In this document: in pieces, positions 25,878 to 31,282 of the stretch
How the letters are laid out: every line of letters begins with the position of its first letter
Position numbering within the stretch: position 1 is the first letter of the stretch
Assembly (NCBI GenBank): GCA_019187105.1
Contig: JABAQM010000001.1
Span: forward strand, 2,572,734 to 2,636,733
Length of the DNA: 64,000 nucleotides
Origin: Fimbriimonadaceae bacterium
GTDB lineage: Bacteria; Armatimonadota; Fimbriimonadia; Fimbriimonadales; Fimbriimonadaceae
Direction: 5' to 3'
Notes under the pieces: model-generated
Database searches by the model: none
Told to the model about the DNA's origin: nothing
Seen by the model: the letters and a program-made list of their open reading frames with translations, nothing else
Translations under genes and position numbers: made by a program

Positions 25878-26885
25878 TTAACCACCGATGCCGGCGTTCC
25901 CCTTGGCCTTCTCCATTTCAGCCAGGAATTGATCGATCGGCCGGAAGCCAACCATCTCATGAACGATCGACTCGTCGGCCTTCATGAATTTGATGGTGGG
26001 GTAGCCGCTGACGTTGAATCGAGCGACTTCCGACTGCTGGTGGTCGCCATTGATCTTGACGAACACAAACCATTTCGACATTTTCTTAAAGGAATCCTGA
26101 GTGTAGACTTCACGGTCTAACTTCTTGCAGAAGCCTCACCAATCAGCGTAAAAGTCCACGAGTAGTATCCGCTTGGTTTTCTTGGCAACGTCCTTTCCTT
26201 CGGCAAGGCTGTAATACCAACGGTCCGAGATCAGGTCTTCTTCCTTAACTTCTTTCGATCCTTCCGGAGCCTTGAAAGCGAAGAGATCGGCACCTGCGGC
26301 GGCGGCAATCGACTTTACGTCGTAGACCATGGTGTCGGATTCTTTGCCGGCAACCGAAAGCTCAGCCTGTTTGACAAGTGAATCGGCCGGATCGACGTAA
26401 AGTGTCCACTTTGCGTCGGCACTGTCTTTGGCGGTTACCTCTAAAACCTTGAACTTCGTGCCTTTGCGGACCTTGTCTGGCATCGCCTTCGCATTGTAGC
26501 CGTTATCGAACTGCTTTTCGGCGAAGAAAGCGGACCACAACTGGGTCGCTTCACTGGCGAGTAAGCCTTTTAGCTCGGCATCGGACTGGGCGCGCTTAAA
26601 GTAGGTCTTACCCTTCTTGTCATAGATCGTGATGGTGGTGCCATCGGCGACCGTTAAACTGTCCGAAGATTCGAGTCTCAGCTTGTTGGGCTTTGACAGC
26701 GCGACGGTGTACTCTTGCGAGGTTCCACCGAGTCGGGTGACGGTATAGGTCGATTGCAGCGATTCTGCCTTGAAGAGTTTGTCGCCAACTGCCTTGAGGA
26801 GGCTGGCGCCCGTACCACTCGTTTGTGCAAGAACAACGGCCGCAATTCCACCGATAGTGATCGCTAGAATGGGTTTGCTTCTCAT
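25878..26885 (-). CDS. LolA-like/thioredoxin fusion with in-frame TGA at the active site (candidate selenoprotein)
   Basis: Two frames, 26885-26136 and 26135-25878, are in the same phase and separated only by TGA at 26138-26136. Read through, codon 250 is the TGA and the sequence is DFYADW-(TGA)-GFCKKLDREVY, followed by KWFVFVKINGD and the cis-Pro motif GYPTIKF. This is a thioredoxin_7-type domain whose W-C-G-F-C would have selenocysteine as the first thiol. Residues 1-24 are a signal peptide and 30-215 a LolA/RseB-like beta domain (DGTTITIYDKKGKTYF). A 7-bp stem can form right after TGA (26130-26136 with 26105-26111), but its 18-base loop is larger than classic bacterial SECIS loops. A nonsense mutation TGC/TGT to TGA or a base error is the alternative. 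Confidence 0.65.
26105..26138 (-). promoter_or_regulatory. Possible SECIS-like stem next to the in-frame TGA
   Basis: On the minus strand AGGCUUC, which includes the last base of UGA, can pair with GAAGUCU (one G-U pair). A competing 5-bp hairpin UAGAC/GUCUA with loop CGUGAA lies about 20 bases after the UGA, in the usual distance range. Neither is a textbook SECIS, so this is weak support only. Confidence 0.3.
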
Positions 26886-26965: not shown

Positions 26966-28339
26966 GTGGTGAATCCCGCGCATAATCGGACGGTGCCGAG
27001 ATCGGGGATTTGGATCGTCGTCCTCCTCTTCCTATCGCTTGCCGGGGGCTACATTTACGCCACGCCCTATCGGCAGTCGGGCTTTTTGGCCAATCAGCGA
27101 ACCCTTGAAGGCCTTCCTGCTCCGGCAATCGACATCGGGGCGCCCGACGAAAGGCAGCATGCCAACTACATCGCCGGCCTCGTTGAGGGTCAGGGCTTTC
27201 CGGTGCTGAAGCCGGGCGACCCAAACCTTGGAGAAACCTACCAAAGCCACCAGCCGCCGCTCTATTACTTGCTCGGCGCCGCTGTGGGCAAGGTGTTTGG
27301 TCTGGAACCGACCTCACCCAGCGGCATTCATCTCCGGTGGATCAACGCTCTTATCGGGGCGATCACCGTGATCGGGCTCTTTCGACTTGGCCAGAAGGCG
27401 ACGGGAAACGACTGGGTTGCTTTGCTGGTCGCGTCAATAGGGGCACTCATTCCGATGGTTCTCGCACTCCATGCTGCGGTGAGCAACGATCCACTGCTCT
27501 TTTGCCTGTGCACCTGGACCCTGGTTTGGCTGCTGGACGCAGACGCCAGCGGGTGGACGATGCGGAGAGCTCTCTTGATCGGGGCTCTGGCAGGGCTGGC
27601 TCTGAATACGAAATCGACCGCAGTCGCCCTCCTTCCCCTCATGGCAGTGGCCGGGTACGTTGCCGCGAAGCGAGACCGTACCGCTTGGAAATGGGTATCG
27701 GCTGCAGTCGTTCTCGCTGTTGTGATGGCGCTTCCCTGGTGGATGAGGAATATTGGGCTTTATGGCGACCCGCTTGCGATGAGCGCGTTTAGGGAGGCCT
27801 TTACGGGAAACCCCAGGACGGAGGACCTGGTTCAGGCGCTCGGACCGAGCCGATACTGGACCGAGCTGTTCGGATGGTGGACGCTTCGAAGCTTCTTTGG
27901 GGTGTTCGGATATATGGACATCTTCTGGCTTCCAAACCTCTATCGGATCCTGGCCGCCATTACGGCCATCGTTGCGATCGGGTGCCTCCGGAAAGAACGG
28001 GTGGCGGAAGCAGCCTCTGCCAAGGCCGGATTCCTCCTGTCCGGTACCTTCTTTCTCCTTATCCTGATTCTCTATGTGCAGTTCAATCTCACGTATTTTC
28101 AGGCTCAAAGCCGTTACCTTTTCCCGGCGATCGGTCCCATTGCGCTCGTGCTCGGCACTGGGCTCTCGGTCTGGTTGGCAAGCCGAATCCGGGCTGGCGC
28201 CGTGGTCGCCATCGCCCTCCTGGTGGTGGCAAATCTAATCAATTTGGCCAGGTTGCCCGAAGAGTTTAAAGAGCGTGCGGCGCAAGACGCAAAATTATCG
28301 TCGCATCCTCACGAAATAACCCGTCGTATACTCGGTTAG
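26966..28339 (+). CDS. GT-C family membrane glycosyltransferase (DUF2142/ArnT-like)
   Basis: A 457-residue polytopic membrane protein. Its first periplasmic loop holds IGAPDERQHANYI, the Asp-Glu pair that binds the lipid-phosphate sugar in GT-C enzymes, and SHQPPLYYLLGA further on, a common partner motif. About ten transmembrane segments follow, ending in a short charged tail. It should transfer a sugar or sugar-like group from a polyprenyl carrier; acceptor unknown. Start: GTG at 26966 or 26969, or GTG at 26993 just before the first hydrophobic segment. It diverges from the thioredoxin-fusion gene and precedes the STN-like gene by 13 bases. Confidence 0.75.
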   Translation: MVNPAHNRTVPRSGIWIVVLLFLSLAGGYIYATPYRQSGFLANQRTLEGLPAPAIDIGAPDERQHANYIAGLVEGQGFPVLKPGDPNLGETYQSHQPPLYYLLGAAVGKVFGLEPTSPSGIHLRWINALIGAITVIGLFRLGQKATGNDWVALLVASIGALIPMVLALHAAVSNDPLLFCLCTWTLVWLLDADASGWTMRRALLIGALAGLALNTKSTAVALLPLMAVAGYVAAKRDRTAWKWVSAAVVLAVVMALPWWMRNIGLYGDPLAMSAFREAFTGNPRTEDLVQALGPSRYWTELFGWWTLRSFFGVFGYMDIFWLPNLYRILAAITAIVAIGCLRKERVAEAASAKAGFLLSGTFFLLILILYVQFNLTYFQAQSRYLFPAIGPIALVLGTGLSVWLASRIRAGAVVAIALLVVANLINLARLPEEFKERAAQDAKLSSHPHEITRRILG

Positions 28340-30718: not shown

Positions 30719-31282
30719 GTGCTATCGATGGCCCTTAATCCGGCGCATGCCGCGAATATGGACGACGATGCGGTCCTGCAGGACCGGTGGATGGCTGGCG
30801 ACGAACAGGCGTTCGAAGTCCTTTACCGGAAGTATTACGGGAAGGTGTTTGCCATCGCGAAGGGCGTCCTTCTCGATGCCGACGATGCCTCCGATGCCAC
30901 CCAGGAGATCTTTCGCCTCGTCCATCGGAACCTGCGGCGATTCGACCGACGGTCGAAATTCAGCACGTGGCTTTACCGCATCGCCGTCAATCGCAGCATC
31001 CAGGAGGCCCGCTCCATCCGCCGAAGGAAGTCGGAACTTCCGATCGAATCTGCCCAGCACATCGGTCGCGAAGATGAGGTCCAGGTCGTCGATCCGAAAA
31101 TCAACGACGCCTTGGGCAAACTTCAGCCCATCGACCGGGCGGTCCTGATCTTGTTCTATTGGGAGGAGCTCAGCTTGGAGGAGATCGCGACGTCTCTGTC
31201 TTGCAGCGCAAATGCAGCCAAAACGCGGCTGTTCAGGGCCCGCGAAAGATTTCGGAAACTTTACGAGCAGGAGGAAGCATGA
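30719..31282 (+). CDS. ECF sigma factor (first of three)
   Basis: A 187-residue sigma-70 family factor of the ECF type. Region 2 contains FEVLYRKYYGKVFAIAKGVLLDADDASDATQEIFRLVHRNLRRF, with the -10 binding helix FSTWLYRIAVNRSIQ following. Region 4 is AVLILFYWEELSLEEIATSLSCSANAAKTRLFRAR. The linker is short. GTG at 30719 or ATG at 30728 may be the start. Its stop overlaps the start of the anti-sigma gene (ATGA at 31279-31282), the standard arrangement for an ECF with its membrane regulator. Target promoters are unknown, though the adjacent STN-like secreted gene is an obvious candidate. Confidence 0.9.
   Translation: MLSMALNPAHAANMDDDAVLQDRWMAGDEQAFEVLYRKYYGKVFAIAKGVLLDADDASDATQEIFRLVHRNLRRFDRRSKFSTWLYRIAVNRSIQEARSIRRRKSELPIESAQHIGREDEVQVVDPKINDALGKLQPIDRAVLILFYWEELSLEEIATSLSCSANAAKTRLFRARERFRKLYEQEEA

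Follow-up and report, generated by a model that had tools for sequence, protein, structure and literature searches.

A LolA/RseB-like carrier domain joined to a probable selenocysteine thioredoxin in a Fimbriimonadaceae bacterium

The locus and the predicted protein

The window, i.e. the whole stretch of 64,000 nucleotides analysed here, carries on its minus strand a 335-codon gene (25878-26885) that runs from an ATG at 26885-26883 to a TAA at 25880-25878. The sole in-frame stop inside this gene is a TGA at 26138-26136 (codon 250), and the two halves that it separates lie in one frame. The TGA falls on the first cysteine of a thioredoxin active site (DFYADW-U-GFCKK, where U marks the TGA), while the second cysteine and the cis-proline are intact. 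The sequence-only reading of this DNA had pointed out both the position of the stop and the preserved thioredoxin features, and both observations hold; the Pfam match to Thioredoxin (PF00085, 1.6e-18) runs across the TGA.

The protein begins with a signal-peptide-like N-terminus (MRSKPILAITIGGIAAVVLA/Q..., 26811-26885, minus strand), which has a pLDDT below 50 in the model and which, judged by eye, may direct export. It is followed by a LolA/RseB-like half-barrel domain (residues 22-216, 26238-26822) and by the thioredoxin domain (residues 220-335, 25881-26228), with the active site W-U-G-F-C and cis-Pro 296. Pfam recognises the first domain weakly, as LolA (PF03548, 2.9e-5, residues 60-161), barely over its cut-off, and the LolA lipoprotein carrier equivalog TIGR00547 scored 22.7 bits, below its cut-off of 112. 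An AlphaFold model with 74 family members as input reached a mean pLDDT of 91.7. In this model, residues 22-216 adopt the half-barrel common to LolA and RseB and match solved structures of LolA (4mxt, Z 18.4 over 180 aligned residues; 8cgm, 16.2; E. coli LolA, 14.6-14.8) and of RseB (14.7). Residues 220-335 match thioredoxin 2lst (Z 16.3) and the C-terminal domain of DsbD (14.8), and C250, C253 and P296 are invariant in the family alignment, as expected of a thioredoxin fold with a C/UxxC site and a cis-proline. The predicted structure is a LolA/RseB-like half-barrel joined to a thioredoxin.

Such a fusion had been described from sequence alone as unfamiliar. The model and the solved structures confirm that it is real; it is also old and shared throughout the host's order, mostly with cysteine at the active site. 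Among 291 genomes of the phylum, the full-length fusion occurs only in four families of that order (f1, f3, f4 and f5). Matches from outside the order that were listed at E 1e-30 extend over the thioredoxin part and no further, and a sequence scan of public genome contigs returned one distant thioredoxin and nothing else.

A divergent gene for a PMT/DUF2142-type membrane glycosyltransferase (26966-28339, plus strand) adjoins the orthologue in most relatives. This conserved arrangement supports orthology and indicates that selenocysteine (Sec) and cysteine have been exchanged at one locus; it may possibly also reflect a functional link between the two genes. The next gene downstream in the host, DUF1579, is not kept as a neighbour in relatives.

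The TGA codon in relatives and the selenocysteine machinery

A homologue search over 200 related genomes yielded full-length homologues across the host's order. At the aligned codon, 12 of 80 distinct full-length family members, the host gene included, carry a TGA and the other 68 a TGC or TGT. Since no other codon was found in any of the 80, a chance origin of the TGA is excluded. Stops in the homologues of genomes G024, G084 and G005 lie elsewhere and were left out of the TGA count. Contig C15 of G057 and contig C25 of G039, which are assigned to different genera, are identical over 80 codons on each side of the TGA, and the two were counted once; their identity suggests a mis-binned contig or a very recent transfer. 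On a maximum-likelihood tree, at least 5-6 switches between Sec and Cys are required, and the nearest clade unites the host gene with one Sec gene (44% identical) and one Cys gene (46%).

A nonsense mutation or a sequencing error at the catalytic codon, which would make the gene a pseudogene or a misread one, is the alternative that comes closest to surviving, as TGA is one base away from TGC and TGT. We consider it very improbable. The same TGA stands in 11 other distinct homologues from other genomes, always together with selA, and the reading frame that follows it is conserved. Overall, all 12 TGA genes are hosted by selA-positive genomes, compared with 40 of the 68 Cys genes (Fisher p 0.006), the remaining 28 Cys genes being found without selA. 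Moreover, differences among the Sec homologues downstream of the TGA number 662, 573 and 885 at codon positions 1, 2 and 3, respectively; this excess at third positions indicates that the downstream part is still translated.

The same region bears on a second alternative, in which the TGA is a real stop with low-level read-through and the product is a functional, truncated LolA-domain protein. The whole LolA-like domain does lie within residues 1-249, and a paralogue in the genome (L109) matches the LolA part only. Termination would nevertheless strike the catalytic residue inside the thioredoxin domain, and the 85 codons past the TGA stay conserved in the TGA genes, so that this explanation appears even less credible than the previous one.

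The genome also holds the decoding machinery that had been proposed as a check: selA (445 bits, cut-off 268), selB (355 bits, cut-off 242), selD (347 bits, cut-off 125) and a tRNA-Sec (69 bits), for which ARAGORN gives the anticodon TCA. With this machinery present and TGA found in relatives, the earlier suggestion of a selenocysteine thioredoxin is supported on two points that could have undone it. A change of the genetic code, by which TGA would be an ordinary sense codon in this genome, would account for an in-frame TGA and is the least plausible alternative, since a neighbouring sigma factor gene (30719-31282) ends in TGA, the residue replaced is always cysteine and the Sec machinery is a dedicated one.

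Other genes of this genome carry such a codon. In the selD gene itself (G000:C1:1769561-1770469, minus strand), a TGA interrupts the motif CAG-U-ASK, which is the known UxxK site. A Bcp-type peroxiredoxin gene (G000:C1:397944-398309, minus strand) has its TGA at the peroxidatic cysteine (TPG-U in place of TPGC), and peroxiredoxins with TxxU are a known selenoprotein type (PMC13188914). Counting the fusion gene, no fewer than three genes of this genome have a TGA where Sec is known to occur in proteins of their kind, a lower bound, as the selenoproteome was sampled. Separately, a gene with TPR and AhpC/TSA-type parts (G000:C1:624232-624588, minus strand) contains an in-frame TAG; the gene is probably disrupted, or an error is present.

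The hairpin downstream of the TGA codon

Bacterial SECIS elements have been modelled as a stem of 4-16 bp with a loop of 3-9 nt that has a G in its first two positions and lies 16-37 nt after the UGA (PMC13188914), with a published energy cut-off at or below -7.5 kcal/mol. The host gene contains a SECIS-like hairpin, GTTAGAC-CGUGAA-GTCTAC (26103-26121, minus strand), whose loop begins 21 nt after the UGA and whose stem consists of 5 bp above an interrupted lower stem. The sequence-only reading had called this stem no textbook SECIS. In loop size, position of the G, spacing and stem it fits the published rules better than had been noted; its energy of -7.0 kcal/mol, obtained with a simple local implementation that failed to separate Sec from Cys homologues, falls narrowly short of the cut-off. 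Hairpins of such energy alone are equally common in the Cys homologues (25/68), and Rfam returned nothing for the region.

Given that the energy scan did not split the two groups, the argument was moved to the loop sequence and to a stem at a fixed position. A G[G/U] loop closed by three or more stem pairs at the 21-nt position was found in 8 of the 12 Sec genes and in none of the 68 Cys genes (p 2e-8), a comparison in which the CGUGA loop motif was picked after inspection of the sequences and the relatives are not independent. The remaining 4 Sec genes need a different hairpin, and the signal was weak when all possible stems were compared. Codon choice tells the two groups apart as well: arginine at the loop position is written CGT or CGG in all eight Sec genes that have it but in 3 of 16 Cys genes (p 2e-4), the other 13 using other arginine codons. 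That synonymous codons specific to the Sec genes build the hairpin loop is a further argument against a mutation or an error at codon 250.

Although it belongs to a different family, the peroxiredoxin gene has the same CGUGA loop at the same 21-nt spacing (GGATATC-CGTGAC-GATGTCC), and selD has a hairpin GTCGGA-CGTGC-TCCGAC at 32 nt. Across nine such hairpins, the stem bases vary yet pair at 42 of 45 positions, a score reached in 24 of 2880 permutations in which the 3' halves were swapped.

Proposed function and relation to known systems

We conclude, with a probability of roughly 0.94, that the gene encodes an exported selenoprotein in which the UGA at 26138-26136 is decoded as Sec and a LolA/RseB-like carrier domain is combined with a Sec thioredoxin; that it is a genuine selenoprotein is highly probable. 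What can be taken from sequence and its modelling is the machinery, the repeated TGA/Cys exchange at this codon, the conservation of the hairpin and the folds predicted for the two domains. SelA, SelB, SelD and tRNA-Sec would decode the UGA, aided by the hairpin just downstream, and the protein would be placed outside the inner membrane, so that the enzyme probably works outside the cytoplasm. There, Sec would replace cysteine as the attacking residue of the thioredoxin domain (UGFC). The LolA-like cavity may hold a lipidated or hydrophobic client or ligand, and the Sec-Cys pair could act as a reductase or isomerase, reducing or rearranging a disulfide of the client or reducing an oxidised thiol. 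The genome encodes a DsbD-like protein of ~610 residues; a membrane electron carrier of this kind would be the obvious source of electrons for keeping the Sec-Cys pair reduced.

Thioredoxin selenoproteins of the PF00085 UxxC type are already catalogued (PMC13188914, PMC9312934). The host protein shares with them the thioredoxin fold and Sec in place of the first CxxC cysteine; it differs in its N-terminal LolA/RseB-like domain, its signal-peptide-like start and a UGFC site without the usual proline. Like the Trx7/PDZ (seleno)protein (NF041199) and the rhodanese/DsbD fusion-like TsoB (NF045694), it would be a multidomain selenoprotein of the thioredoxin type, but its partner domain is another one: it scores 30 of 300 bits, below the cut-off, against the former model and 48 of 805 against the latter, through the thioredoxin part only. 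The N-terminal domain has the fold of LolA and RseB at 11-20% identity and, unlike them, comes with a catalytic thioredoxin domain. The extracytoplasmic thioredoxin folds of the DsbD C-terminal (gamma) domain and DsbH are among the top structural matches of that domain, whereas these carry CxxC, and the partner of DsbD-gamma is a membrane electron carrier rather than a LolA fold. No NCBIfam model fits the fusion protein, the term 'LolA' is absent from the 2026 catalogue of prokaryotic selenoproteins (PMC13188914), and a search that covered subscription journals thinly returned no literature joining 'selenoprotein' with 'outer membrane lipoprotein carrier'. Sec thioredoxins have long been known, and it is the LolA-fused architecture that is new. 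The catalogue of selenoproteins would gain a carrier-fused thioredoxin, where ordinary annotation would end the gene at its catalytic residue.

The active-site proline is missing from all 12 Sec genes, compared with 11 of the 68 Cys genes. In a tree-aware test, on average 3.8 of 5 independent pairs agreed with this association and none opposed it (p 0.125); the independent pairs being too few, it remains a suggestion. With several switches between Sec and Cys at a single orthologous locus, and a neighbouring active-site residue that tends to change along with them, the family offers a way to study what an enzyme that probably works outside the cytoplasm gains from selenium. We lean, by a modest degree, towards a broader view: these proteins may form an unlisted selenoprotein family of extracytoplasmic LolA-like carriers in which a Sec thioredoxin acts on bound cargo and Sec occurs only where the active-site proline is replaced, mostly by an aromatic residue, which would make the family a natural experiment on the exchange of Sec for Cys.

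Two further observations were made in relatives. One genome (G041, contig C94) carries a tandem pair of fusion genes, one with the TGA and the other with no stop in its frame. Additional thioredoxin-domain genes (L101-L106 and L108), matched without the LolA part, have a TGA at the same active-site cysteine.
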